Shown here: piece by piece, positions 2,497 to 63,962 of the stretch
Numbering within the stretch: the first letter of the stretch is position 1
Layout of the letters: the number at the start of each line of letters is the position of its first letter
Source: Sphaerolaimus hirsutus
Lineage: Eukaryota > Nematoda > Chromadorea > Monhysterida > Sphaerolaimidae
Length of the DNA: 64,000 nucleotides
Direction: 5' to 3'
Assembly: GCA_964036195.1 (NCBI GenBank)
Contig: OZ038452.1
Span: 4,644,704-4,708,703 of the forward strand
The notes under the pieces: generated by a model
What the model was told of the DNA's origin: nothing
What the model saw: the letters and a program-made list of their open reading frames with translations, nothing else
Database searches by the model: none
Translations under genes and position numbers: made by a program

Positions 2497-5400
2497 CAGG
2501 GGCAGTCCCAGACCATGTAAAATGTCTTGTAAAATGTCAAGTAACATGCAAAGTGTTTTAAGTCGTGTAAAATGCCCTGCAAAATGGCAAACGTACATTT
2601 GCATTTTTTCCAGGGCATTTTACATAACTTTTGACACTTTGCATGACATTTGGCGTTTTACAGGGCATTTTGTAGGGTTTGGGATTGGCACCAGGGGCGG
2701 CTTTCGCTGTTTTGAATTTTGCAATTTTTGCAAACTTTGGACAATTTCTCGTCGGGTGGACGGGTCAAAAACGATCAGCCTATAAGGACAGTTCACTTCG
2801 GCTGAGTGCAACTTTTCAATGCCCACTATGGTGATTGAGTGGCCTGCATTGAGGGGTGAGTTTTTAAGGTTGATAAAGGTTGAAATTATTGTATTGGCTA
2901 CGATAAAACACATTTCGGAAACAAATAGCCTATTCGTAATGAGAAGTAAAGCGGGGGATTTTTCAAGACAGTAGGCAACATTTTAGAACATTTTAGAACT
3001 TAACTACAATAAAGTATTCAAATTTTTTTACCCATCAATGAAAGTTTAGTAGCAATCAAATATTGTAAAATATATAATAGATATGAATGTAGGCATTATA
3101 AATATTTATATTTATGGATTATAACAATTTTATCTGAATTTTTAGTTGCTTTGTTAGATTCCATGCAAGTGGGTGGAGGTTTCGACAAAATACTTTTCTG
3201 CGTGTATCAAATATACTCCAGTGACTTAACATCTTGCACACGTGGTTCCCGCTTAAAGATATTTTAAAGGCATGCAATTTTCATAAAAGACGAAAAAAAT
3301 TATTGCCGTTACAACGGTTTAGGTCACTCACAATAATACATTTTTACATCATATTTTCACAACAATCACATGCTTCGATTATCATTGGCACTGTTCCAAC
3401 GTAAGACATAAATAACTGCGCGTGCAGTGTCATGTCATTATACACTAGCGTGCAGAATAGTTAAGACTTTTTCGCTGCATGACTAATGTTGCCAAAATTT
3501 CAAAATGGCAAATGTGCCATGTAAAATTTATGTGCTTCTTTAAGGCCCCTTATCTTGGGACTGGGGGACTATTTTGAGAAAAATTTTTTTCAGGTTGTAG
3601 CCCCATCCCCAAACCCAAACATTCTGGAATAGCATCAAAATTGGGCAAGGTGCAAAAGAAGGGGAAGCACCAAAAAGTGTGGTGGACAAAAAGCCCCTGT
3701 TTCCTAGGGGTGAAAAGTCCCAACTATTCTGCACGGTAGTGTAGTACACTGAACAGGTTCAAAAATAGGATACCTTGAAACTGCAAATAAACGGGCGGGG
3801 TGCAGTGGTCGTGTCTTGGACCATGGCCTAGGCGCCAGCCATCGGTGAAGTACTGGTAAAGAAATTCGAATACAGCTGGATGAGTTTTAGATGCCCCAGA
3901 CGGCTGCCGGAAGTCGATTATCGTTACTCTGCACATTAGGGATTAGTGAAAACTTCCACTGTATTTTTTTATGTATGATTATTCCACTGTAGATATCAGG
4001 GACGTATCCAGGATTTTTCCAGGCCGATTTTTCAAAATACAGCTGTGTGACGGAGAAATGCGCGCTCGCGCGCAAAATTTTTACAGTACACCTTCAAAAG
4101 TTGTACAAAAAGTTGCATTTTCAGCAACTTTTTTAGGTCTCGCCCGGGAAGGGGGTGGGGCTGCAGCCCCCCCCGCCCCCCCTGGATACGTCCTTGGTAG
4201 ATATACCTAATATGTATAACAAATATGTGTTGAAGTACCGTATTTGCTCGAATACTTATCCCGCGGAATTATTTTGTTGCGAGACTTTATAAAAGGGGAT
4301 TATTCAAGCGGGAGGTAATTTTTTCGCCACTCGTCGTCAGAATCCATTTTTGGCCCCAAAATTTCTAATCTAAAGCCACGACACAGTGTTAACATGACAT
4401 TCATATTGCGACATTGCGATAATTTGTACACGTGTCGCTATTTCCAGTGCATTACTGCACAGTGCACACACACAGTCATTTTGTTTTGTTACGCAGTTTT
4501 CTCCACTTTCCTTTTTCGTGGTTTTACACTTTTTCAAAAGTGTAAAACCGGACCATGTGAAAAGCTTTTTTACGCTTTTAGTACTCGGGTATTTCGGCCG
4601 GGAAAACATAATAAAGCGTATGGGTATTTTATGAAAGCGTATGCGTAAGCGTAAGTATAAATACCCATTTACCCGGGTATTTCGGGTAAGCGTAAATACG
4701 CTTTTGCAACTCTGATACGTACTATGGACAGTAAAAAAATATTTTATACTAAGTGTGTCAAAAAATATTTTCACTTGTCGGGAAACGGAAAGGTAACAAA
4801 TTTGTTCTACCGGAAAACGGAAAGGTGAAAATTTTTCCTACGGAAAAGCGGAAAAGAAGACGGAAAGTCACGGAAAGACGGACGGAAAACCTTAGTCACG
4901 TGTCAATACAAGAAAATTCAAAATGGGGAAAAGTTCTGCATCGATAACCGAGAAATTTAGACGGCAAGAAAATGAAGAAAGTAAAACTTTTCACACACCG
5001 AACTCCGAAACTGTGCAAAAAGGTGGCCACTTCGGTGGCGCCGATCCACTTTCGCGTAGCGCGCAGCACGCCGCCCAGCTGCTCGGAGCCGGGCGCGTCG
5101 AAGCCCACTGCGGAGGGCCACACCATGGACATTTTGTGGGTTTCGCACCTTTGTGCCTACACACACTGGTTTTCAACTGAAACTTTGAAAACTCATAAAT
5201 CAGCTTTGAACGCATTCGAGTTGACCGGAGTGAGTTAATTTGAAAGCTTATCAACTGTGGTTGAAGATATTGCATTTAAGTAAACTTAACTTAAACACAA
5301 CTTATTTATGAGTATTCAAAGTTTTGGTTGAAAATTATCGTGTGTAGAGCCATTCGCAACAAATTAATTTCCAACCAACTTGACCAGGCCTTTTCAATCA

Positions 5401-8400
5401 GCTCTTGAATCTTTGGAATCGACGGGATCGGAGTCGATTTCAATCCTGAGCGAGTTTTATAAAAAAATGAAAAAGGACATATTTTATAATTGCCGAGTGA
5501 CAAATAAAAAACAAACATTACATTTTCACTGAAAAACGCAGATAACCCCCAGCACCTCACCAGGCCACAATCTCTCCCTATACATTGGGCAATGTGCCAA
5601 GGCGAGCAGTAGCATCTGCAGATTTCTATAGCCGCAGCCGAAACCTCTGTCGGCGGCCGTGCTGCACATGAAACCGGCGGCCGCCTAGGGGCACTCCCAA
5701 ACCCTGTAGAATGCCCTGTAAAATGTCAAATGTCAAAAGGCATGTAAAATGTCATGCAAAATGGCAAACGTACGTTTGTCATTTTGCAGGACATTTTACA
5801 GGACTTATGACATTTTGCATGACATTTGACATTTTACAGGGCATTTTACAGGGTCTGGGAGTGGCACCTGGTCGCTCGTGTGCGCCGACTGCACGTTGTC
5901 GTCCGCCGCGCACAAGCGCTGCAACAAAGGCAGCACGCCTGCAAGGGTGCAAGCGGAATTGACCTCTAAGAATTGTTTTATTGTGTTTTCGGGATCGGAA
6001 TCGGGATCGGGATCGCTGAATCCCGGAAAATATCGGGATTCGGGATCGGGATTGCGTATGAACGGGTGGAAAGATATTTGGACGGTTAGGTAGAAAAATG
6101 GGGTATCTCGTTGAGATGTGTTTGAAGTTTGGTTTTAAAACGATTTCATCGAGTTCTGCATCGCCTTGGCTTTAGCTCGGATGCGAACTCCGAGACCCCA
6201 AAAGTAGATATCCATCACAACGTGCCCACGCAGACTACTTGACAACCAAAATTTCGAAAACTGATAAGTTGGTTTAAAAATCATTCCTGTTCACCAGAAT
6301 GAATTATTTTTTATCTCCATCAATAGCAGTTGGCTACCTAATCCCTTATTCCGGTAAATTCAAATGCGTTTAACACAAATCACAAAAAAATCCACCCCCC
6401 CCCTTTCCAACCCAGTATCGGTCCGGCGGCATCCACCCCAGTATCATGTTCCATTTGCAATTTCAACTTGGCGTCGTGCAACTGGCCCAGGCTCAAATGT
6501 CCGCGCGAGTACATCTGGGGCCAGTTCCGCAAATTCAGAAGTAAAATGGCAAATGCGAAGTGAAATGGCAAAGGCGAAGGGAAATTAGCAAAAGCGAAGC
6601 GAAATTACTTTTTTTACTTCGCTTTTGCCAATTACTTGCCATTCCACAACGCTTTTGCCAATTTTCTTCTCATCTCACTTCGCATTTGCCATTTTAATTC
6701 TCACTTCTCAATTTGCGGAACTGGCACCTGGTCCAAAGCGCTGGTGCCCTGGGCTTTGTAGCTGCAGCGTTCGTCCATGCCGTACTGCTTCTGCAGTTGC
6801 TGCAGTTCGTTCTTGCCGCCCGTCAGCGGCGTGGCGCTTGAGGTTGCAGCGCCTGTAATGAAGAAATAAGTGTATTTTCGATTGGACATTAAACAGGCCA
6901 TTAAATAGGACATTCGAATGTCCACTCCCAGACCCTGTAAAATGTCAAATGTCAGTGTCTAAGGTCATGCAACATGCCCTGTACAATAAAAAATATACTT
7001 TTAGTTTTTTTACTGGTCACTTTACATGACATTTTACACGAATCCTGACAGTTTCATGGCATTTGACATTTTACATGGTCTAGGAGTGGCACTAGATTGT
7101 TTGACTGGCGGGATATATTTATTTACAGATTTTCGAGTCAACAGTGTGAAAAATTGCGTTTATAAAGAAAAAAAATAATCAGAAAAACAGGTGCTTTCAG
7201 CGTGGGGCGCAGCCCCAGCTAAACATCCAAACGACAAACAAAATCGAACCATCAACAGAATCTGCAAAATGAGCATTCACGTGGGCGTCCGCGTCGGCGC
7301 CGAGACGCACGTTGCACACCGGACAGCGGGGCGAATACCTGCAGAGTTGTTAAAAGTATGGATTTTTAAGTAAACGTAAACGTAAAGTATTTATATTTTA
7401 CTCACACATGAGTACAGAAAACTTTAAGTATTTTATTTTTACTTTTACACTGCGTTAAAGGTGAGTAAAATACTTTTTTCAGAGAAAACGTAAAAATGAG
7501 TATTTTTTCTTGGGAAAACGTGAAATGGGTATTTTTCGTGGGAAAACGTAAAATGGGTATTTTTTCACGTAAAAGTGAGTGTTTTACTCGCAAAATACCA
7601 TAAAAATTGGGTGTTTTTATTTATTTTTTACTCTGAAATACATCATAGATGTGTTTTTCTCTCCTGATAAGTATTTATTAGGAAAATGTCCTGTTTGTCA
7701 CTTTCTGTCTGGCAAAATGACATTTTCTGTCCCCTTATAATACTTTTTCTGTACTGTACTTTCAAAAAGTATGCGAGTACCGGTATTTTTTCGGGGGGAA
7801 ACGTAAACGTATTTACGTAGTACGCGAGTACTCGTATTTATCGAGTAACCGTAAATACGTTTTAACAACTAGGAATACCTGAAAAAATGGATAGAAAATC
7901 GAAATTGATAATCACAATGACAATAAAAAACAGTTAATTTAATCAGCGCAAAAAATGTGGGGAAAACACGACAAACTCGCAATCGTCATCGACGGCAGGT
8001 TCGTGTATTTCTGCAAAATGGGCTGCCACTTCATCGGGACTGTTGGCAACGAACGGACACAGTGGGCAGTCGATGCCTGGGGTGAAAAATATACGGGTCT
8101 ATAATTTCTTAAAAGCTTTTGACAAAATCTAAATACTAATGTCAAAAATATTGAAATCACAAATAGGGTTGGAAAAAAAACGTTTTTTTTAACTCGATGT
8201 TTTTTTTTTAAAGCTCCCAGATATGACCTAGTGTCAACATATATAGGTATATCAGACACTGGCAATACTCTGTGATGTTAAATATGACCATATAATGGCT
8301 GTGGAGCCATGGGATAGCATTATAAGTGGTGATTTGTGTCAAAAATATCCATTTTTCGTCGACATATCGTTCGTATATCGCCTTATAGTCGAATGTTTGT

Positions 8401-10222: not shown

Positions 10223-10897
10223 TGCGGTGGAATTTGAAGGCTCTATGGCGTAGAAAAAATGTTCTGTGGCGCCTAGCGCGATATTTCAGGACTATACAGT
10301 TAACGCCATTTTTCTCATGGGGATTTGCGTTACTATTTGTTTACAGTATACAAATGCCTACTTAATTAGTAAGTTCAATCAATTACTACACTAGTGTACA
10401 TAGACAAAAGCGGTTAGATAGTGCTGTACATGCTTAGAATTTAAAAAACTGATTTTTCAAACCACATTTCAAGTCTAAAATAATAAATCATTTTTGATCT
10501 CCGTCAACAGCAGTTGACGAGATTTTCATTGCGGTAAACTCAAATGTGTTTGGTTCTTGGTTTTGCGTGAAGCGGTTTGCAGATCAACAAAGCGCGCATG
10601 CTTTACATGTTTCAAAATAATACTCTAAAAAATGAAAGCTGGTAGTTAGCCAAACAAAATGTTCAACTGTTTGATCACAACAGGAGCTGATTTCATTGCA
10701 GACATGGCAATGGACCAAGTTGCCCCTTTCACCAGGCGACAAGCCCGCACCGTGTAAATTGTCAAACGTCATAAATATAACATTGTCAAATGCCAATGTC
10801 ACATAACTTTGACAAATGTCATGTAAAATGTCAAAAATTCGGTGAACTTTTCCTTTTCATCTTGATTGACACTTTGCATGGACAGGACTTCCACCTG

Positions 10898-11024
10898 GGG
10901 GCAGTCCCAGACACTGTAAAATGTCATGCAAAGTGTCAAAAATAATGTCAAGTGCCCTGCAGAACGGCAACCTAGTTAGCTGACTTTTGACACTTTGACA
11001 TTTTACAGGGTCCGGGATTGGCAC
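10898..11024 (-). repeat. Family A MITE, intergenic, with CAG on both sides
   Basis: On the minus strand it reads CCAG|GTGCCAATCCCGGACCC ... GTCTGGGACTGCCCC|CAG. This is the same end structure and the same CAG flank as the intronic copies, but in non-coding DNA. It shows what an unselected insertion looks like. Confidence 0.8.
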
Positions 11025-11525
11025 CTGGCTAGCATCTGTCAAAAATCTGGCTGCGGTCATCTGTTCGGCGCCATCAAATTCATGCGGGTAAAATGGCGCC
11101 ACAGATAACAAATGAATCCCATTGCCACGTCTGCCTTCTTATTACACGCATATGACCATTTTTTCGATTTTATTTGGAACGTCGCCAAAATTGCGGATAC
11201 AAATATTTATATGTACATAATGTTTTAAGGATCCAAAGAAACAACCGGTGGTAAATATTCTGTTGTAAATACGGTGTCCTTAAACACAGTCGTTTACGGT
11301 ATTATAGGATAGGCGAAGCGAATGTATTGAAAAGAGTGTTTTTCTAAAAACCACTTTTCAGATGACAAAGCAATATGTCGGCTTACTTATTTGGATAATA
11401 CTTTTTGAAACGTCAGATCAAAAGAAATCTGTGCAATAAAATATTTGCCACAAGAGCTTGAACTGTTTGCTGCTCACTTCAAAAATAGTTGTTTTTTACC
11501 TCACCACTCGCGGAATTGGCACCTG

Positions 11526-11710
11526 GGGGCAGTCCCAAGCCCTGTAAAGTAAAGTGTCAAATGTAAAGTCAAATGCAAAGTAAAGTGTCAATCAAAACAA
11601 AAAAGAAAATATTTTATTACTGAACTTTGCATGACAATTGACAGTTTACTTTGCATTTGACTTTACATTCGACACTTTACTTTACACTTTACAGGGCTTG
11701 GGACTGCCAC
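11526..11710 (-). repeat. Family A MITE inserted at the end of a family B remnant
   Basis: The arms are GGGGCAGTCCCAAGCCCTG and CAGGGCTTGGGACTGCCAC, with inner repeats of TAAAGTAAAGTGTCAA. CTG flanks both sides. Immediately to the left (11510-11521) is GCGGAATTGGCAC, the terminal sequence of family B, so this copy landed on the CAG|GTGCC junction of an older element. Confidence 0.8.
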
Positions 11711-13151: not shown

Positions 13152-13430
13152 AATGGCCCCACACGCTAGTTGACGACGCTCCAAATGTCAACTGGTTCCC
13201 ATCCCAATTCAAAGCTTGCTCACAAACCGACGAACGACGTTTAAATGCAAAGGTGTTGCATCATGGTGCAAAGGAAGCTGTACTGTTGAAAAAATATTGC
13301 TATGTATTTATTTACAAGGCTGCCATGACGTATTTACAATAATGCATAGTGTTACTCGCCAGCAAACTTTGAATTGGGATGGGAACCAGTTGACATTTGG
13401 TGCCGTTGTCAACTAGCATGTGTATGGCTG
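13152..13430. repeat. Long inverted-repeat element (family D)
   Basis: The left arm, CCCCACACGCTAGTTGAC then CAACTGGTTCCCATCCCAAT, is mirrored by ATTGGGATGGGAACCAGTTG then GTCAACTAGCATGTG. The core is about 150 bp. Other copies are at about 24310-24530, 41025-41250, 47828-47993, 54545-54775 and 57300-58065. Arm identity between copies looks high by eye. Confidence 0.8.
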
Positions 13431-25891: not shown

Positions 25892-26094
25892 GGTGCCATT
25901 CCCAGACCCTGTAAACGCCCTGTAAAGTGTCAAAAAGTCATGCAAAGTGTCAAAGTCATGCAAAATGCTTCGTAATATGTTAAATTTTCTCTCCCCCCCG
26001 GTTTTCTGCTATTTCCCAGGGCATTTCCCTGACTTTAGACACTACATGATAATAGACCTTTTCCAGGGCATTTTACAGGCTCTTGGAGTGCCCT
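25892..26094 (+). repeat. Family A MITE upstream of Rho1
   Basis: The left end GGTGCCATTCCCAGACCCTG and the right end CAGGCTCTTGGAGTGCCC are inverted, with TGTAAAGTGTCAAAAAG words between. It is flanked by CCG and TAG, so no clean 3-bp duplication survives. Confidence 0.75.
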
Positions 26095-26439
26095 AGTTTG
26101 CGTTTGTCGGTGCGATACGGGTATTATCGAGGAGCACAGTTTGCCTCTCAGCCAGCGGCACGCGCGCGACCGACGGGCGCATCGAGTGGCTGGTTCGGTT
26201 TTCTCGGTTGTTTTTGACTGGTTTTTGCATAAACCTGGTTTCTCTGCCCTGCGTCAGTTTCTTGTTCTGACCATTATTTTGATTAAACGTTATTCATTTG
26301 TGTTTTGTATTCTGGCTGCGGGAACGAACTTCTTATACAGCTTTTCGTTCGGTAGAAATAGTTCCATACCGTTTGAACGCACAACTTTGTCTGGTAGAGT
26401 TTCACTGTGTGGTGAACCATAACGCCAGAAGTTATCCAC

Positions 26440-40363: not shown

Positions 40364-42923
40364 GTGGAATATCAAGTCTACGTATATTGTGGGTCACCCT
40401 GTATTCAATTTTATTTTAGTATATTGATCAGATGTAGAGATCATCAAATTTAAACATAAATAATTTTGTTCTATTTTGATCTAAAAAGTTGGGATGATAA
40501 AAACTTAGCTAGGAAAATATTCAGTATTTCGGTATTATTGGGATTTTTAACGTTCACAACTACGAAATTTTTCTATAACTGAAGACATTTTTACGACCGA
40601 AAGTTCTCAACTTTTGCTGGGTTGTTAAAACAACTGGAGATGGTTTTTACTTGGAATTCATCCAAAAATGTCACGGAACTATATTTCGGTTTGACCTAAA
40701 TATTCCCGAATCTATTTTCCTATTTATTCGCAAATGAAATCTTATGAAATGAAAAATTGTGGAAATTTCATGAGCTATTTTGAACTGAGTATGGTCTATC
40801 TTATCAGGGGAGTGGGCCATAGCGTTTTTATTTTAATTTTCCATTATTTTTTTCTACAGTGACGAATTATTATTGTGGTGAATTAGGTGGCGTGCGTTGA
40901 TTTTCTTTATCGCGATGAGGGGAATGTGCATTGCATTATGATTCCTGGAATTTTTGCCTAAAATACCTATTTAGTACTGAATATTCGGTGTATCGCAATC
41001 GAAATGCTAAATATATTGACCCTACGCACGTGTTGACGACGGCACAAAATGTCAACTGGTTCCCATCCCAATTCAAAGTTTGTTTGGTATTCGAAAAATA
41101 TTGCTATATGTGCAATGATGAGCGAGGCTGGCATGCAGCAAATATAATTGTATACAACGATGTGTGGTCTTACTCCTGAGCAAGCTTTGAATTGGGATGG
41201 GAACCAGTTGACATTTGGTGTCGCTGTCAACTATTGTGTTTAGGGCAAAAATATGGTTTTGCGGGGCGAATGTAATTTCGCACTTTGTGGCACTTTCCAA
41301 GCTTTGTATTTGCAATGCAATCAACTCCTTTTAGCAGATTATTTGTTAACACTTGGCTTCATTATATATATGTGTTTTTGATTTTTCAAGTAGGGTTGTA
41401 TTTTTGCTACGTGAATTTCGCTGTTGCAATTTCTGGACAGATATCAGAAATGAGTTGACATTTTGCAAAATATTTTTTTTTCATTTGAATTCTGATATCG
41501 AAAGCAGACTTTGTTCAGTGCGTGTGATAATTTTCTAATTGGATATATGGGTAAAAAATGCAACGTGGCACCTTAACTAGAGAAATCCATTTATTTAAAA
41601 AACCCGACGCAACTACGAAACACCCTCAGTAGTTTATGAGTGATCTGAAAATTGACAGGCATCGAATGCATGTGATTTTAAGAAAATTACCCGTAAAATA
41701 CGTGAGTTATAATAAAAAACGTGATAGTAGATTTGTTACGAGTACCGAACTTTTTCCTAAGTACGCGTACTGGTAAATACTTTTGATTTTTACCTACGCT
41801 CATAAAATACCTGGGTAAAGTACGTTTTTCTACCCCCGTACCTGTTCTATGTATTTTTGTGTAATTTAGAAAAAAAACATCCATGCATTCGATTCCGTCC
41901 CTAGAAATCCGACTGAATCTGATCAATTAATTATGTTAATCGCTGGCGGAATGAAAAATAAATCTGCTTAGGCCATTATAAAAAGTGACTTCTCATTTTA
42001 GGATTGGAACTTTTTAATATCGGCGCCACCCACGCTGGATGTCAACTAGATTTTAGTGTAGTTTAGGCACCGTTTACACGGATTTTTTGTGACTGACGGA
42101 TGTCTACTTGACCACTTTTTCTCCTTAATATTGAACTTTTTACTTGACTTATTAAACTTTTCATGTGTTGTCGGAGTCGTCACAAAAAATCCGTGTAGAC
42201 GGTGCCTTAGGTCGCAGGACAATTTCGATGTCAATAGACCCAGTTGACTAAAATCAATCAATCAACTAAAATCAGTGAAAACCAGTCGGCCCAGTTGACA
42301 TCCGATAAAAACCGATGTCAACTACGCCGACTGGTTTCCATCATGATTTAGTTCATGGGTTGAAATTGAAGATTGAACTTTAAAATTGTGCCGCGTTCTA
42401 AATTGACCTAAAATCGAGTTGACACCGAAAACCAGTTGACATCCAGCGTGTGTAGAGCCAATATTGCTGCGCGATTGTTTACCGTTTACTAGCTTTGGGT
42501 TTTCTCTCAGTTGTATACTATTTATACACCAAAACAGCTTTCGTAATTGGTTCTACCTGCGGTGTAATGATAATAAAATTGATAAATACATATGACATTG
42601 GAAAAAGTGCTAATGAAACTTGTGTATGTGCGTTCTAAATACTTTGGTGCCATTTTGAGTGTTGACGCGTACAAGCCGGTATGCATATGCATATTTATGC
42701 AAAAAAATTGCAAAATTGTCAATGAAGCGCCACACACAGTAGATGTCAACCATATTTCAGTTGAAGTGAAGAGTAGGGATTTCAACTGAAATCGAGTTGG
42801 GACCGAAACTAGTTGACCTTCGGTGTTTGTGTCGCTTAACTGCCAGTTTTTACCTTCTGTGTGGTTTTGTTTATCCACCTGATAGCATTACCGTTTGTAT
42901 TTATGCTTTCGTGGAGCTGTGGC

Positions 42924-52860: not shown

Positions 52861-55800
52861 ATGCTGGCGTCGTCCTCGGCGAACATGGCGCCGGACGCGA
52901 ACGAGCAGGACGACATGCGCCAGGGCTTCCTGTGCCCCGTGTGTTTCAGGGATTTGGGCGACGCGGCGGGGTTGAGGCAGCATTTTGATAGGGATCATCC
53001 CGCAGAGACTGATTTGGCTGTGCAGTTGAAGGGTGCGTTTTTGGTGTGGTTGAGTGGGTTTTTGGTGGTTGGTTGCCGTTGCCTCATTGGGCGTAGTTCT
53101 CCGCATGGTTTGGTTAGTTGTCTCTGATTTGAGACTCTTCCCCCCCCCCCGAACCTGTCAAATGACAAATGTGATGCAAATTGTCGAAATATCGAGTATA
53201 CCCCCCCCCCTCAAACTCTTATACAACTCCATAGACTCTTATACATGGTGGTTTTTGTTGCATTGTTCTACGTCTGCATTAGTATTAGTACTGGGATTAC
53301 AAAAAATTTGGCGAGATGATAAACCCCCGTAAAATAAACGGTAGTTTGATGGTTTGACATTTTACATACTTGACACTTTGCATGCCATTTCACAATGTTT
53401 CTGAGTGGCCCCAACCGCACAAAAATGATTGTTTTTATCCCGCATTCTCCCACCTTCAGGTCTATTCGCCAAGGCCAAAGTGCGCATGACTCTCCCCCAA
53501 TCCGACTGGCACATGCGCGGCTTGATGCGGTCCGGCTCGGCCGGCAACGAGCCCACCGACGGCCGGCGCTCCCCGTCGCAGCAGCAGCAGAAGCGCGGCG
53601 GCATCGAACAGCCGCTCGGAGAGTGCACTGATTGGACGGAGGTGTTTCAAAAAGATAGGGACACTTGCATCGATCAGGTTGCCGTGCAGACGAACCAATT
53701 GATTATTCGACTCGATAAATTGGTCAATCATTGTCCCGCGGAATTGTCTAAGAGAAAGGGTGGGTTTTTTGATGGGGGTTAATGTGCCCGAGTAATTTTA
53801 CCTAAATCCTTATTAAATTCGTACTTCAGTTTTTTCCAAACCTGAACGAGTTTTTGAACACACATAGAAAGCAGAAATGTCGATAAAAAATGATAAAAAC
53901 GTCTATTTTCACGCAAGAACAACCAGCACCAGGGTCGGCAGACGCTTTTTAAAAGTAAAATTCTTCGAAAACTCGCTTCTATCACGGTAAAATAAAATCA
54001 CTTTCAACCATCCCCAATCCTTCCTCACTCCCACAATCCACACACTGGCGTTGCGGTACCCGGTACGGTACGGCGAATTTCCTATTTTTCGGTAAACGGT
54101 ACGGTACGGTAAATTTTCAATTTTCCGATACACGGCACGGTACGGTGATTCTGAAAAGCGCGTTACGCGGTACGGTAAATTTCGAAAGTGGCAGTAAACG
54201 GTACGGTAAATTTTCCAAAAAATGCGGTACGGTACGGTAATTTCTGCCACCCTACCCACAGAGTTTGAACGCGAAGCCGTACCGTGGCAAAACGACTCAA
54301 CATGCCCCTCATGCCGCGTGTGCTCGGAACCGTTCAACTTGCTGCGGCGGCGGCACCACTGCCGCCTGTGCGGCACGCTCATGTGCAAACAGTGCAGCGT
54401 GTTCATAACGTTCCTCATGGCTAGGAAGTTGGTCAATCCCGCTGTCGCTGCGGGGTACAGCAGTGAAGTTGGCAGATTTGGAGCCCTGGAGGGTGGTGAC
54501 CCGGTGGGTTTTTTAGGTGGATGTGTGTGGGAGATATTGGCTCTGCACGAACTAGTTGACAAGAGCACCAAATGCCAACTGGTTCCCGTCCCAATTCGAA
54601 GCTTGCAGACGAGCCGGCGTTGCGAATGAAGCTGTATTGTTGAAAACATAAATATTTCGGTGTGTGCAATTTACGAGGCCGATAATGCGTGGCGTTATTC
54701 GTATTCAGCAGCAAGCTTTGAAATGGGATGGGGACCAGTTGACATTTGGTGTCGTCAACTAGTGTGTAGGGCCATTGTAAGTATCGCTATGAACCTTCGG
54801 TTCAATTGAAATTTTCTAAATTTACGCTTCATCTCATTGTGACTCGAGCCTATTGCCCATTTCAAATTTACCACGTTGTTTTCCCTCGCCATGTAAACTC
54901 TTGATCGCTGCGTAATTTGCTCAATTCCCTAACCTTCTAATACTGCCGTCACATGCACGTTTCACATGCCGCATGTAAATCTGCCGCGCATGCCCAGGAT
55001 AACGGCGTGAGTCCGCGTCGCAGAGCGGAGCGCCTGTTGACGGCCGCCGCCGGCGCCGTGCTCAAGCGGGACACTTCCGAGATCAGCGTGGCGTCCTTTT
55101 TTAACCAGGTGCCGCATTGTTGCCGTTTTGTTCGGATTTATTTGGCCGTGGTAAGGCATAACCTAAAACTATTACTACCTGTTGCGGTTCAATGGCTTGT
55201 CTCAGTTGAAACCCATGATTCGAGGCGTCACTAGCACCTGATTTTTCTGCATACCGTAATGCATAATTTTTTGCAATACCGTATTTCTTCTAATACAACG
55301 CCATATCTCCGACAGAAGGAACCTCCAATAGAACGACAGGTTTTGGCACTTTTTACACTCACGAAAAAATAGAACGGCAGGCAGAAATTACGTTGGAAGA
55401 CTGCCAAAACGCAGAAATATGCCAAAAATGAATGGCGAGAATCTTGAAAGTGTTCAAAATGAGTATTAAGAAGCACTATTTTCTTTTCATATCATGTTTT
55501 GATAAATTTATGCTCTGATATTAACAAGTTGATGAAATATTATTTAAAAAGAAACAGTGTGATAATGTTGTGTGAAAAATTCGTGAAGAAAAACGCAGAA
55601 CGGCAGCCTCTAATACAAGGACACGTAAAAAAGTGCATGAAACCCACCCAGGAGGGGGAGTCGCACCTGCGCGTGTGCCCCCGCTGCAAGCAGCTGCTGA
55701 GCCGCCGCGACGCGGTCATCGAGGCGCGCCAGTCGCCGCCCATCATCGTGCAGCTGTACGAGCGCCTGCGCCAGTTCATCGACCAACTCGCCACCACCTA

Positions 55801-58800
55801 CCCGACGTATTGTAGAATGGCGCATAGTTTGGGGTTGGTGCACTTTTGCGTTTTTTTGTGTGTTCGTCAGTTTTTGTGAAGATTTTTGTATTTTGGACAG
55901 TGTGCCGCCGGCCATGTAAACCCGCCGGCCGTGTAGCATCGAAAAATGCCTATTTTTCATGGGGGTTTTTTTTGTCAGTTTTCATTTTTTTAGGTGCGGA
56001 ACACATTTGAGTAAAGTCAAAATGTTAAGAAATTTCATTACTTATCATATCTGACTTCATTCAAATGTGTTCAGCACTTGGGTCTACATGGCCGCGGGGT
56101 AGAATAACATGTCAGCCTACATCGAATTTTGTACGTCCTAAATCATGTTTTTGCGGCGAAAGAAAATTCAGATAAAAAATTAACATGCGCAGCGAAATGT
56201 GTCGTATCAGCTGTAAAAAATTACCTACGCAACCTTTTTTGATAAATAAAATTACCTACGCTGACCGCAAATAATTTTCATTGTGAAATGTGCATGCAGC
56301 CTCGGCGAGTCCATGTATACTCTGCAAGATGCCCAACAGTTGCGGCTGAAAATTATGAATCTCCAGGAACAAATCGACGTTCTCAGGTGAATTTCCACTA
56401 TTTACTTCTCTCAAAAGATTTTTCTCTCACAACAAAGTTCACGCATACAGCAAAAAGATCGAAACTTTCGGCGTGACCGAAAGCGGCGGCAATAGCGGCA
56501 ACTTCAAAGCGGAAATCTCGCCGCGGCGGCAATTGCTGCAGCGCAACGTGCGCATCTACGCGACCAACATTCTAAAAGAGACCATTTTTCACGTGCCCAC
56601 GCTGCCCGACGAACAGCAGTACGTGGGGCTGCAGAAAATGTACAAGGAGCAGATTAGAAGACAGATTGAGGATGAGAGAAGCGAGAGTTTGGCCAGGGCC
56701 AGTGCCGCGGCTGGAGCCGGTGAACAGCTGAGGGTTAGATGGGTTTTTTGAAATTTTAGTGTTATAGGTGCTTGGATCAGGAATGTAGTCGGTGGGGGTG
56801 GGCTGAGATGCTGAAAATGTACGGAATGCTACTATCGTGTAGGAATTTTTGGATATTTTTCAGAAATTGTCAAAGACAATTTCACAGTGAGAATTTTCAG
56901 AGAGATTTACAAAGCACTTCAAGTGTTCTCAGATTTTGTCGAAACCTAACTGTCGTGACTAAAATGTTTAATAAAAAATCAATTTTGCACAAAATATATA
57001 GCTACAGCTTAAGAAAATCATCTTCTCGCAGCCAAACAGCCTGTCCAAGCCGGGCACCGACGTCAAGTCGGCCTACAGCGGCCACGGCACCATTGTGACT
57101 GGCACCGGCGCGGCGGTGTCTTCGAGCGGCGGCTGGTCGGCCGATTATGGCAGCATGCCAGCCGTTTTCCATTACAACCCGTTTGATGAGCAGGATGAGG
57201 CTCAAATTGACCCGGTGCAACAGCAAATTCTGATTATAAAGAGGTGAGTGGCATGAAGCGTTCTCCGAGGTTTGGACTTCTGGGCATGTTTATTGCGGTA
57301 CTACGCACTTTAGTTGACAACAACGACTACAAATGTCAACTGGTTCCCGTCCCAATTCAAAGCTTGCTGGCGAACCCAGGGGTATCTTGAATTTTGACCC
57401 TCCGAGTGGTTGGATGGATAGCAAATCGCTCCTCCGGAGGGATAGATAGCTGAAAAAATTTCTGGGGGGGGGTTGTGGTGGTTCGATATATAGGCTTTTT
57501 CGGGGCATAGAAGGAAGAAAAGGGAGAAAAATCGCCAAAAGCAGGTGTAAAATAGCTCAAAATGGGTATGCAAGAGCATATAGTACTCAAAATAGCTGAA
57601 AATAGGCAGTTAGACGCATGAACCAGTGATTTTGGAGGTGAAAATCTATATATTGGTATGAAAAATAGCGATTTTGAGCGAAGATTGGGGTATAGTTTCT
57701 GAAAAATCGCTCCAGATAGGTAGATAGCTGAGCGATTTGGGGGGGGGGGGGTTTAGGGGGTAGTAGCCCAAAATTTTGGCTCCGGGATAGATAGATAGCT
57801 GGGCGGTTTGGGGGGGGGGGTAACCCCCCCCCCAACCCCCCCCCCCCCCCCCATTCGAGACCCCTGGGCGAACCGTCCACGACGTTCAAATGCAAACGTG
57901 TTTTATCATGTTGCAAATGAAGCTGTAGTGATGAAAAAAATATTGCGGTATGTGCAACGGACAAGGCCGACATGAATTAAATTTATGTGTATATAATAAT
58001 CGTCGGCAAGCTTTGAATTGGGATGGGCATCAGTTGACATTTGGTGTCGTTGTCAACTAGTGTGTGTAGGTCCAAACAATAATATTTAGCACCTTTTATA
58101 GGTTATACTAGGTCTTTTAAAGGGCGTGCACTGATACGCACACGTGCCCGATACGCACATATGCCCGTTTTTTTCACTTGTCACTTTTTCAAGTGATTTT
58201 CAGATATGAATAAAGTGAAAAAAAGTTGCGCAATGACATTAGTAAACTTTTTCACTTCACTCATATCTGAAAATCACTTGAAAATGTGTCAAATGAAAAA
58301 CAATGAAAAATGGCTATTTTTCACTGTTTTTTTCACTTGACACATTTTCAAGTGATTTTCAGATATGAGTGAAGTGAAAAAAGTTCACTAATGTCATTGC
58401 GCAACTTTTTTTCACTTTACTCATATCTGAAAATTACTTGAAAAAGTGTCAAGTGAAAAAAACGGGCATATGTGCGTATCGGGCACGTGTGCGTATCAGG
58501 CCTGCCCCCTTTTAAACTATTCGGAACCAGTTAATCTGTTCGCATATATAGGATTGCCAATGTATGGAGTTATTCATAAATTTTGAGTTCGCAATTTTGA
58601 TTTCCAGCAAAAAAAACAACTACAAGAACATAATTTTTCGCGCGCAGCACCCTGCGGCAGGCGGCCGAGGCCGGGCGTCTGGACGACGTGCACATTTTGG
58701 AGGCCAATCTGCGCGAGTTGGAAGCGGCGCTGAAAGAACGCAGTTTGGACACGCCGCGCACGCCCGCACCTCAGCAGTCGCAACTGGCATCTGATGCTTG

Positions 58801-60089: not shown

Positions 60090-63000
60090 ATGACTTCTGC
60101 CGCTAAGAGAGGTACGTTTCTGGGGCCAGTTCCGCAGGTGGAAAAGTTAAGAGTTAAAACTTAAGAGTTGAGTAAAATAACAAATGACAAGTTATGAGTA
60201 GAGTTAATAGTTAAGAGTTGAGTAAACCAACAAATCATTTTACTCAACTCTTAACTTTTCCACTTGCGGAACCGGCACCTGGTTTGCATTTTGGTTTTTC
60301 GTTGATCTTGAATTGTATCGATCCGCCGTAATAATGATCCTAGGTAGATAGTGTAGTCTGCACTAGTTCACAGTAATTTCGGAAACTAAAATGAATAGTT
60401 TTTAGAGCATCTGAGTTGACCGGGATGCACCGGCTAGCAACGGTAGTTGATGAGCTGACATCAGAGTCATTCAGGTTAACGGAAAGCAAACTTATCAGTT
60501 TCCGAAATTTCAGCCGTAAACTATTATGCACAGCCACAAGGACGTGGTCGGGGGGGCGGCCGCCCCCCCCCTTCCCGTGTCCGACCAAAAAATGTGCCAG
60601 AAATGGCACTTTCAGACGACGATTTTGTCGACAGTTTGAAAAAAAATTTGCGCGCAGGCGCGCATTTTCCCTTCACAACATATATTTTCGGCTGACCGGT
60701 CTCTGCGGCCTCAAAGCCAGTGAAAATGGACTCAATTCCTGTCCATGCCACTCTATATGCCTGTAAAATACAGACATATACTGGAGTTTTGGCACCAATG
60801 CCAACGCCACTGGCGCCATGGCGTGGCGCCGACGAACGGCGCCAACGCCATGGTTCGTTCCCGGCCCCGGTTCGCCGGGCTCCGTATACAATCCGCCCCC
60901 CCCTCACAAATCCTGGCTACGTCCCTGCAGAGCCACAACGTAAATAAAATTTGAGAATAGCAAAATTGGTTTATCGCGTTTGGACAACAATTTTGCGTGA
61001 TGGTACCACGCATTATGTCAACTGATTCTCACGTCAATTCAAATTGTAGTTGACGGATCGCTGTACAATTTTCGCGTCAAGTGCATACGCGGCAATTTGT
61101 AAAAATGCTCTCAATTTTGCATTCGAAAATGGTTTGGCGACCAATCAACTAAAATCTGAATCTACACCGGTCGGCCCAGTTGACACCTGTCATTGTGAAC
61201 TTGTGTATGTAGGGCAAATTGGCTCCACATAACTCATTCCCCATCACCCCCCCCCCCGCAGCCGTGTACATAGTGTCAGCCAAGCGCACGCCGTTCGGCT
61301 CCCTGGGCGGCAAGCTGGCGGGCATGTCCGCCACCGACCTGACAGTCCACGCCGCCAACGCGGCCGTGCGCGCCGCGTCCATCGAGCCCGGCCACGTGGA
61401 CTCGATGGTCGCCGGCACGGTGATCCAGTCGTCCCGCTGCGCACCTTACCTGGCCAGGCACGCGGCGCTGCGTGCCAAGTTGCCCCTGGGCACCCCCTGT
61501 TTGCTAGTTGGAAGGAGATGCGCATCGGGCTTCCAGGCGGTTGTGACCGCGGCGCAGGTTTGGGGTTTGGCTATTTGTTGAGATTGGTTGTGCTTTTTCA
61601 GCCTGTGGAAGTCTGGAAAGGTAGAAAAATCGCTGAAAATAAGCATATAACACCTAGTATTGAAAATGTGCAGTTGGTATTTTGAAGGTGAAATGGCAAA
61701 AAGGTACGAAATATTCGCGCTTTTGAGCAAACATTGGGGTAAAATTTCTTTAAAAAATCGCTCGTCGAAAATCGCTAATTAAGTAATCGGATAGCTGGTA
61801 GTTGTGGGGGGGGGGGGGTAACGCCACATACATACTTTACCCATGCTTAACCCCCCACATCATTTCGCCAAAATCCAGGAAATCCAACTGCACGAGGCTG
61901 AAGTGGTGCTGGCTGCGGGCGTGGAGAGCATGTCACAGACTCCCTTCGCCGTGAGAAACATCCGCTTTGGCACCAGGTGCCACTCCCGCACCTTGGAAAA
62001 TGCACTGTGAAATGTCGAGTGACATGTCAGAGTGTCTGAAGTCATGGAAAATGGAAAATGTCATGCAAGGTGTTAAAAGTCATGTAAAATGTCCCGTAAA
62101 ATAGCAAGCAATATTTGCCATGTTGCAGGGCATTTGACATGACTTTATACACCTTGCATGGCATTTGACATTGCATTTTACATGACTTTGCACACTTTAC
62201 TTGACATTTGACATTTTACATGGCATTCTACAGGGTGTGAGACTGCCCCAGATTGGGTATGAAATACGAACTGGAAGACACTTTGTGGGATGGCCTCACC
62301 GATCATTATATCAAAACTCCGATGGGCGTCACTGCGGAGACTTTGGCGGAGAAGTACAAGGTGACTAGAGAGGAGGCCGACGAATTGGCGCTGCGCAGTC
62401 AGACTAGATACAGATTGGGTTGGTTTGACTGGCGGGTGTCTAAATATTCGATCTTTTAGGGTGGTCGATTTAAAATATCTGGATTTTTTATTCGATGAAT
62501 TTTCAAAAAAAACCGGGGTTTTGCTAGAAATCGCTCAAAAAATCGATCGCCAGTTATAAGCGAGAGAGTTCAGTTGAACGTATGGACTATCCATGTGCCA
62601 GTTCCGCAAATTGAGAAGCGAGAAGTAAAATGGCAAATGCAAAGTAAATTGGCAAAAACGAAGTAGAATGGCAAGTGAATTGGCTAAAGCGATGTAAAAA
62701 ATAAAAAGTAATTTCTCTTCGCTTTTGCCATTTTACTTCTCACTTATCAATTTGCGGAACTGTCGCATATCGAACATTTTCAAACAATCATGAGTATCCA
62801 AACAAAATATAGTGTAGGTTTTGGATAATGGATTACGGGCACTTGTAAATATTGTAAAATTTTGTAAGAAAGATGGAAATCTGTCGTATTGAAAGAATTC
62901 ATACGGTTGTAACCCTAACCTGGGCTGAATGATGACTAGTTGGCTTTATGGCCCTTACGAATTTAGGACAATTAAAACGTTGTATTGTAGCGCAGTTAAA

Positions 63001-63962
63001 TATCAAGTGAGTTGCTCACCTAAATAGTCATGGAACAATAAGGTAAAAACGGACATTTCATCGTTTACTTTAATAAATAAGTCTGTCGTCTGCGTTTACA
63101 TAAAAAAAAACATCAAAAAGCCCCCCCCCCCCCACCCCTCACAAAACCCCATACGCACCCCAATTTCAGCGAAGAACGAGGGCCGTTTCGAGCAGGAAAT
63201 GGCCCCGGTGGAAGTGAAATCGCGCAAGGGGGCGGAGCTGATGGACTACGACGAGCACCCGCGCGACACCACCGCCGAACAGTTGGCCAAGCTCAAGCCC
63301 GTCTTCAAGAAGGACGGCGTGGTCACCGCCGGCAATGCCTCTGGTGCGTGGGGAGGGGGGGTGGGGGGCAGTACCTGGTAAATGGCAATGTCATGCAAAG
63401 TGTCAAAAGTCACGTAAGATGTCCTGGATATAGTTAAATGACATGCAAAGTGTCAAAAGTCACGTAAAATGTCTTGGACATTGTTAAATGACATGCTAAG
63501 TGTCAAAAGTCACGTAAAATATCCTGGACGATGTTAAATGTCATGCAAAGTGACTAAAGTCGTGTAAAATGTGCTGTAAAGTGGCAAACGAGCAGCAAAA
63601 AGAAGTAAATTTGTTATTTTACACGGCATTTTACGTGACTTTTGACACTTTGCGGGACATTAGACATTTTCCAGGGAGTGGCAGCGCCAGCGGTGCATTT
63701 ACTTCTCTCAACCACCCAACTTCCCACCCAATCTCATTCTACACACCATTCTACCCCCTCAGGCATCAACGACGGGGCGGCCGCTCTGCTGCTGGCGAGC
63801 GAGGAGGCGTGCAAGCGCTACCATCTGGAGCCGCTGGCGCGCGTGGTCGCCTGGCGCGCCATCGGCTGCGACCCGCACATCATGGGCATCGGGCCCGCCG
63901 AGCCCATCAGACACGTGCTCAAGAGTGTGGATATGACTTTGGACCAGATGGATTTGATTGAG
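60090..63962 (+). CDS. ACAA2: ACAA2-like mitochondrial 3-ketoacyl-CoA thiolase, 5' part (6 exons, continues beyond window)
   Basis: Exons: 60090-60111, 61262-61557, 61879-61976, 62252-62418, 63170-63343 and 63763-63962 (phase 0, donor GTGGGG follows), giving 957 nt and 319 residues. The remaining roughly 75-80 residues should include the NEAFA and CIGGGQG catalytic motifs and lie off the window. Matches: [20 protein letters not shown], the nucleophile C94 in RRCASGFQ (NRLCGSGFQ in human), [57 protein letters not shown] and [11 protein letters not shown]. The enzyme cleaves 3-ketoacyl-CoA to acetyl-CoA in the last step of beta-oxidation. As in human ACAA2 the N-terminus is short (MTSAAKR). RRCA instead of RLCG beside the nucleophile is a small departure. 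Intron 3 is a transposon. Confidence 0.94.
60123..60278 (-). repeat. Family B MITE in ACAA2 intron 1, opposite orientation
   Basis: GGGGCCAGTTCCGCAGGTGG and CCACTTGCGGAACCGGCAC are inverted, flanked by CTG on both sides (CAG on the minus strand). The arms are TTAAGAGTTGAGTAAAA units. It begins 11 nt after the exon 1 donor. Read on the gene strand it cannot provide its own splice sites. Confidence 0.82.
60537..60927. mobile_element. hAT-like MITE, CAGGGACGTA family, copy 3
   Basis: CAAGGACGTGGTCGGGG and ATCCTGGCTACGTCCCTG are flanked by CACAGCCA and CAGAGCCA, an 8-bp duplication with one mismatch. It contains GCGCGCAGGCGCGCATTTTC and GGCGCC palindromes, as at 20791-21227. It lies in ACAA2 intron 1. 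Confidence 0.85.
61600..61825. repeat. GATA-type repeat fragment in ACAA2 intron 2
   Basis: GAAAGGTAGAAAAATCGCTG, AAAATAAGCATATAACACCT and ATTGGGGTAAAATTTC recur in order with the copies at 57520-57720 and 610-780. It ends in a G-run. Confidence 0.6.
61977..62251 (+). mobile_element. Family A MITE forming the whole of ACAA2 intron 3 (introner)
   Basis: Exon 3 ends GGCACCAG, and the intron opens GTGCCACTCCCGCACCTTGG. It closes TGTGAGACTGCCCCAG, directly before exon 4 (ATTGGGTATG). The 275-nt element fills the intron. CCAG occurs at both borders. Splicing joins AG|A for Arg and restores [11 protein letters not shown], as in other thiolases. Arms of TGTCAAATGCC, AAAGTCATGTAAAATGTC and AATATTTGCC units are complementary. 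Confidence 0.93.
62595..62765 (+). repeat. Family B MITE in ACAA2 intron 4, with CAT on both sides
   Basis: GTGCCAGTTCCGCAAATTGA and TCAATTTGCGGAACTGTCG are inverted, with exact CAT on each side. This shows that the 3-bp duplication is real and not limited to CAG. The arms have AAATGGCAAATGCAAAG units, as in ZUP1 intron 5. Confidence 0.85.
63365..63680 (+). repeat. Family A MITE with tandemly expanded left arm in ACAA2 intron 5
   Basis: GGCAGTACCTGGTAAATGGC starts the left side and TTTTCCAGGGAGTGGC ends the right. A unit of about 60 bp (ATGCAAAGTGTCAAAAGTCA then CGTAAAATGTCCTGGA) is repeated about four times, which is unusual for the family. It is internal to the intron. Confidence 0.75.

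Follow-up and report, generated by a model that had tools for sequence, protein, structure and literature searches.

How new introns arise in animals is an open question, and the stretch of DNA analysed here (64,000 nucleotides, hereafter the window) raises it in a concrete form: in this one 64-kb window three GT-AG introns, lying in two conserved genes, are each exactly one MITE, and the elements come from two MITE families with similar ends. The question raised by the locus is whether the third intron of ACAA2, which consists of such an element, arose when the element entered a coding sequence, and our results suggest that it probably did. We read this intron as an introner, that is, as a MITE that was inserted in coding sequence and has since been spliced out, with at least two further cases in ZUP1 (one each from families A and B), and we give this reading a probability of about 0.8.

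An earlier, sequence-only reading had proposed that ACAA2 intron 3 is exactly one MITE, that nothing but the transposon and a CAG lies inside it, that the exon borders are fixed by conserved FGT and RLG residues and that two CAGs are present at the site, and all of these points stood up in our analysis. The ZUP1 cases, the CWG/NuwaI link and the GT...TG copy described below go beyond that reading. The spliced ACAA2 model is a single open frame of 318 codons to the last exon inside the window, Pfam finds Thiolase_N and Thiolase_C in it, and it matches the mitochondrial 3-ketoacyl-CoA thiolase 4c2j with E = 4.8e-109; the intron 3 junction is gapless in that alignment, FGT-R-LG lying against FGT-K-LG of 4c2j. 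The borders of the intron read ...GGCACCAG|GTGCCACTCCC...GACTGCCC-CAG|ATTGGG at 61976/61977 and 62251/62252, with CAG|GTGCCA as donor and CTGCCC+CAG|A as acceptor. The MITE occupies 61977-62248 and the remaining bases, 62249-62251, are a CAG, which forms the two copies of a duplication together with the CAG at the exon end (61974-61976). A profile made from four non-coding family A copies reaches both ends of the intron, with its first position at 61977 and its last at 62249, and covers the ACAA2 copy in two pieces (E = 8.6e-5 and 8.1e-26), while the coverage given by a fuller family A profile (seven copies) is there by construction, since that profile includes the ACAA2 copy. The inverted repeat arms of the element span most of its length. 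For its RNA, flanked by 20 nt at either end, the predicted folding energy is -143.9 kcal/mol (z = -11.6), a value as low as this being reached by 0 of 100 shuffles. There are three AGs in the last 60 nt of the intron and the terminal one alone keeps the frame. In local matches to other copies this element shows 62-88% identity, a level that leaves room for older insertions.

The identity of element and intron, with its duplication and a restored reading frame, is found at three GT-AG sites (Table 1). Its recurrence in a second gene and in a second MITE family supports the interpretation as an introner that had been put forward for ACAA2. The second gene, ZUP1/ZUFSP, occupies about 2.4-10 kb of the minus strand and is identified by its joined exons, which match 7oje (6.5e-50) and 6ei1 (1.4e-46); Pfam finds Peptidase_C78 (6.3e-39), and the nine exons, when joined with removal also of a further element that is flanked by CTG (hereafter the CTG copy), give one open frame of 344 codons. 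At the family A intron of ZUP1 (5685-5867) the duplication consists of a CAG in the exon (5868-5870) and a TAG at 5685-5687; the last 60 nt hold four AGs, one of which, the terminal one, keeps the frame, and when ZUP1 is aligned to 7oje and 6ei1 a two-residue gap lies close to this junction. At the family B intron (6515-6727) both copies of the duplication are CAG (6728-6730, in the exon, and 6515-6517), the last 60 nt contain no AG besides the terminal one, and the junction is gapless in both alignments. The further AGs that precede the terminal one in the family A introns include a CTACAG 18-19 nt upstream, which looks usable as an acceptor although on this reading it is skipped, and splicing may therefore be leaky or differ.

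Table 1. Positions of exons, introns, MITE copies and duplications in the window (+, forward strand; -, minus strand).
Feature	Position	Strand	Description
ACAA2 exon 3, upstream flank	61879..61976	+	thiolase alignment, open frame
Upstream CAG duplication copy	61974..61976	+	last 3 bases of ACAA2 exon 3
ACAA2 intron 3	61977..62251	+	phase 2, GT-AG; one family A MITE and one duplication copy
Family A MITE in ACAA2 intron 3	61977..62248	+	272 bp, GTG end first
Downstream CAG duplication copy	62249..62251	+	last 3 intron bases; putative source of the 3' splice site
ACAA2 exon 4, downstream flank	62252..62418	+	thiolase alignment, open frame
ZUP1 intron	5685..5867	-	phase 0, GT-AG; family A MITE 5688-5867 and duplication
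ZUP1 intron	6515..6727	-	phase 0, GT-AG; family B MITE 6518-6727 and duplication
Family A MITE 2500-2691 splitting ZUP1 coding sequence	2497..2691	-	CTG duplication (2692-2694, 2497-2499)
Family A MITE	10898..11024	-	CAG/CAG; upstream of ZUP1, same strand
Family A MITE	11526..11710	-	CAG/CAG; apparently nested at the end of another MITE
Family B MITE	60123..60278	-	ACAA2 intron 1, antisense to the gene, CAG/CAG in its own orientation; not an exact intron
Family B MITE	62595..62766	+	inside ACAA2 intron 4 but not coextensive with it; CAT/ATA at its sides, no CWG duplication
Diverged family A MITE	63365..63689	-	within ACAA2 intron 5 (63344-63762), not exact; contrast case

Copies of the two families were located with profiles that match about 15 places in the window for family A (seven copies) and about three for family B (two copies). 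The 18 MITE copies counted here (15 A, 3 B) are profile matches merged by hand, some of them partial, from which family A cross-matches on B copies and a short match at 53155-53189 were excluded. The seven-copy and two-copy profiles contain the copies under discussion, and repeat profiles without them were made as a check. The family A profile based on the four non-coding copies matched 5867-5688 and 2691-2499 end-to-end. For family B, a profile from the single copy 62595-62766 matched 6518-6727 (E = 2.5e-17 and 4.2e-25, one match for each strand, as the element is palindromic), whereas one built on 60123-60278 alone missed this ZUP1 copy, so that family B copies have mainly their ends in common. 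Copies with clean ends measure 127-272 bp and the diverged copy 325 bp, and all are non-coding. Exact end patterns, one for each family, gave 0 matches to viral contigs, and a tRNA scan and an Rfam scan (gathering threshold) of the window gave 0 matches as well. Four of the 18 copies lie in coding sequence, where its length would lead one to expect 1.7 (P = 0.09 for an excess); this expectation rests on a hand-made estimate of 6.1 kb of coding sequence with borders set by eye. Harmful insertions should be depleted in coding sequence, and the lack of such depletion therefore fits removal of the elements at the RNA level.

The ends of the elements and the bases next to them point to the type of transposase that may have mobilised them. 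Clean copies, with the GTG end first, have the form CAG|GTGCCA...GCCC(C)|CAG, and the element ends in the MITE families are GGGGCAGT / GTGCCA, one starting GGG(G)CAGT and the other GTGCCA. Among 14 tabulated copies, five are flanked by CAG/CAG, one by CAG/TAG and one by CTG/CTG, while seven are without a matching CWG pair (including 40163 with CTG/GTG, 46105 with CTG/CAG and 62595-62766 with CAT/ATA); the inverted-repeat search pattern itself contained CWG, so that CWG flanks were partly selected in these counts, but agreement between the two sides was not. CAG/CAG is also present at three copies outside coding sequence (10898-11024, 11526-11710 and 60123-60278). The NuwaI group of PHIS (PIF/Harbinger-ISL2EU-Spy) has been described, in the part of the source available, as making CWG duplications, demonstrated by empty sites, as occurring mainly in animals and as having TIRs that usually start with GGG (PMC4482050). 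The copies in the window resemble this group as it is presented there in their 3-bp CWG duplication and in the GGG(G)CAGT end, the hosts of NuwaI being mainly animals; unlike NuwaI, they have a second end that starts with GTG and are non-coding MITEs, and introns are not mentioned in the part of the NuwaI description available (PMC4482050). Of the DDE transposase and Myb/SANT protein that mark autonomous copies of this group, Pfam gave no match up to 0.01 in 10 long reading frames of the window, and for this reason the assignment to NuwaI rests on the duplication and partly on the ends. Mobilisation by a NuwaI-type (PHIS/Harbinger-like) transposase is thus our suggestion for both families.

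These features can be put together in a mechanism. A transposase that uses CWG would insert the MITE into an exon at a CAG and duplicate this CAG. The GTG end following the CAG would then create the donor CAG|GTGCCA, the element carrying the 5' splice site, and the duplicated CAG after CTGCCC would provide the 3' splice site. Splicing would take out the element with one copy of the duplication, so that the mRNA would be unchanged and the uninterrupted codons restored. MITEs of this kind could become introns on landing in genes because their ends and the three duplicated bases already resemble splice signals, and the mechanism is simple and testable because the same CAG would be both duplicated by the transposon and read by the spliceosome. 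Judged by their anatomy, the MITE introns are probably spliced in vivo, and each element is likely to have entered an exon that had no intron at the site. CAG|G is a proto-splice site, and the target choice of the transposase could be what produces it.

A wider proposal, which we regard as tentative and rather doubtful, is that a CWG-targeting lineage of the NuwaI type acts as a general intron maker in an animal, its CAG target being the proto-splice site, and that insertions at CTG are tolerated through GT-TG or hairpin-guided splicing. Under this proposal, an insertion at a sense-strand CAG with the GTG end first would arrive with both donor and acceptor and, if the proposal is true, the old observation of proto-splice sites would be linked to the target choice of a transposase.

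The MITE introns were compared with other introns of the window. Among 22 introns with fixed borders, MITE coverage is 98-99% in four (ACAA2 61977-62251 and ZUP1 5685-5867, 6515-6727 and 2497-2691), partly by construction as the profiles contain those copies, whereas it ranges from 0 to 78% in the other 18, the borders of which were set by eye. This set leaves out ZUP1 intron 2 (phases misfit by eye), Rho1 intron 3 and PHYKPL intron 2 (donor unfixed), as well as the later PHYKPL introns, the RBSN introns and the intron of the TMEM-like gene. Donor position +5 is C in all four MITE introns (GTGCCA) and G in 17 of the 18 others (Fisher P = 7e-4, in which the four MITE introns share their donor by descent and are not independent), and the pyrimidine fraction of the 17 bases before the acceptor is 0.41-0.53 in the MITE introns against 0.59-0.88 in the others. 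The donors of the 18 other introns, which belong to ACAA2, ZUP1, Rho1 and PHYKPL, are GTTNG in 10 and GTGCG in two, and seldom GTRAG. Regarding ZUP1 exons 2 and 3 (7338-7973, minus strand), no in-phase GT-AG pair could be found by eye, which may point to an unusual border, a micro-exon or an error in the sequence.

Exonic DNA transposons are known to be removed from mRNA, as with maize Ds, Tc1 of C. elegans and SOS splicing, and this removal is often imprecise or concerns recent insertions. For SOS splicing, Zhao et al. 2025 are said to describe the excision of DNA transposons from RNA in animals, which depends on the pairing of inverted repeats in a hairpin and not on GT-AG. Unlike in these cases, removal of the elements in ACAA2 and ZUP1 would be exact by anatomy, but an SOS-like or Amoebophrya-like recognition of the hairpin could still act in place of GT-AG splicing, or in addition to it, although we consider this unlikely. 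All four elements in coding sequence are predicted to form long hairpins, with z between -8.4 and -14.2, in which the exon ends come close together; on the other hand, long inverted arms give any MITE such a fold, and in three of the four the GT-AG ends are exactly where they are needed. Evidence for hairpin recognition also comes from the CTG copy of ZUP1 (2497-2691), which has a GT donor, ends in TG and is without a terminal AG, the nearest AGs being 29 nt inside its end and 36 nt beyond it. Exact removal of this copy restores a frame ...KPPL|GAFRWNLADLRKDQ... that continues through to the stop, with a gapless junction in the alignment, and the C-terminal frame of ZUP1 behind it is intact and conserved. 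Of 25 in-frame GT-AG pairs for this copy, 12 have a donor before the exon and are meaningless, and two others were scored as proteins along with the exact removal. Against 6ei1 the exact version is the best of the three (162.3 bits versus 160.6 and 154.1), but against 7oje the versions score 173.2 (exact), 173.1 and 171.2 bits, and the one that nearly equals the exact removal, at 173.1 bits, uses GT-AG splicing with a donor 44 nt upstream and an acceptor inside the copy. The CTG copy could be accounted for by an unusual acceptor, by removal under the guidance of the hairpin, by an altered isoform or by a damaged allele, and it represents a natural experiment on whether the element can be removed without a terminal AG.

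A different possibility is that the introns are ancestral and the MITEs entered them later, deletions having then removed all of the original sequence on both sides. We find this improbable. Both families do also occur in larger introns whose ends they do not match, namely introns 1, 4 and 5 of ACAA2, and non-exact MITEs are found in the ZUP1 intron 6853-7249 and in PHYKPL intron 1 as well. However, this requires deletions that ended precisely at the element plus duplication, on both sides, in three introns and in two families. Insertion into an older intron would leave original bases behind, and the fact that none is left at the three GT-AG sites supports the introner reading. A further possibility, very improbable, is that the genes here are damaged and that certain of the insertions, the CTG copy in particular, represent disrupting or polymorphic alleles. 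Each of the four elements adds a stop codon if read through, and the CTG copy is without a terminal AG. Once the elements are removed, however, the downstream frames, that of the ZUP1 C-terminus among them, are open and conserved despite the copies being diverged, and such damage would not explain why the other three have exact GT-AG borders.

The introner reading that we prefer has several counterparts in described systems. A survey counted 27,563 introner-derived introns in 175 of 3,325 genomes, and the available part of it gives introners for two groups only among animals and land plants, both of them animals, with copepods named (PMC9860276). The elements of the window resemble the introners of this survey, as characterised there, in a mutual similarity that reaches both splice borders, TIRs with duplications, one carried splice site and an unchanged length of the product (PMC9860276). 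In the 64-kb window, the similarity of the family A introns ACAA2 61977-62251 and ZUP1 5685-5867 extends to both borders, as does that of 2497-2691, but the latter without AG, and family B contributes one exact intron, 6515-6727; judged on sequence, the protein is unchanged after removal and the signatures of TIR and TSD are present. They differ from the introners presented in that survey in their apparent animal host, CWG duplication and NuwaI-like ends (PMC9860276). Introners with their own 5' site that rely on the insertion site for the 3' site have been described, and the example shown for this same mode has 4-bp duplications and no TIRs, unlike the copies here (PMC9860276, Fig. 2C and its legend).

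In fungi, PIF/Harbinger is among several transposon classes detected within gained introns, and the fungal case is similar to ours in tying a Harbinger-type transposon to intron gain, but CWG duplications or an exact identity of element and intron are not described in the sections of that paper available (PMC8476143). Hairpin introners of Amoebophrya, according to the accessible part of their description, have intron ends with inverted repeats and exon borders spanned by direct repeats of 3-5 nt (PMC7789003). A hairpin joining the exon borders is a feature in common with our elements, above all with the CTG copy of ZUP1; however, Amoebophrya is a dinoflagellate and its introners, as presented there, were defined among non-GT-AG introns, whereas three of the four elements here have GT-AG (PMC7789003). 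The open-licence literature searched contained no NuwaI-type introner, and the only paper in it that combined introners with Harbinger was the fungal one (PMC8476143). The mode with a carried 5' site and the link between Harbinger and intron gain have both been described already, and neither is therefore new here; as far as the literature searched shows, what is new is the duplication of CWG, the likeness of the ends to NuwaI and the host, apparently an animal, as the earlier reading had it and as fits the genes.

Other elements were observed in the window. Upstream of Rho1, a family A copy at 25893-26095 has the ends GT and CCCTAG and is possibly a 5'-UTR intron, and the same may be the case for the family A copy that, with its CAG/CAG, spans 10895-11027 upstream of ZUP1 and in the orientation of that gene. 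Another inverted-repeat family (...GTCAACTGGTTCCC[AG]TCCCAATTC...), which looks like a separate type of transposon, is present at 13192-13389, 41056-41207, 54579-54738 and 57340-58033, with arms that continue outside these intervals; these four places were considered as CWG families and rejected, as their CTG...CAG lies within a longer palindrome. Finally, a large inverted repeat at 58120-58500, with units such as GATACGCACACGTGCCC, is apparently another MITE-like element.
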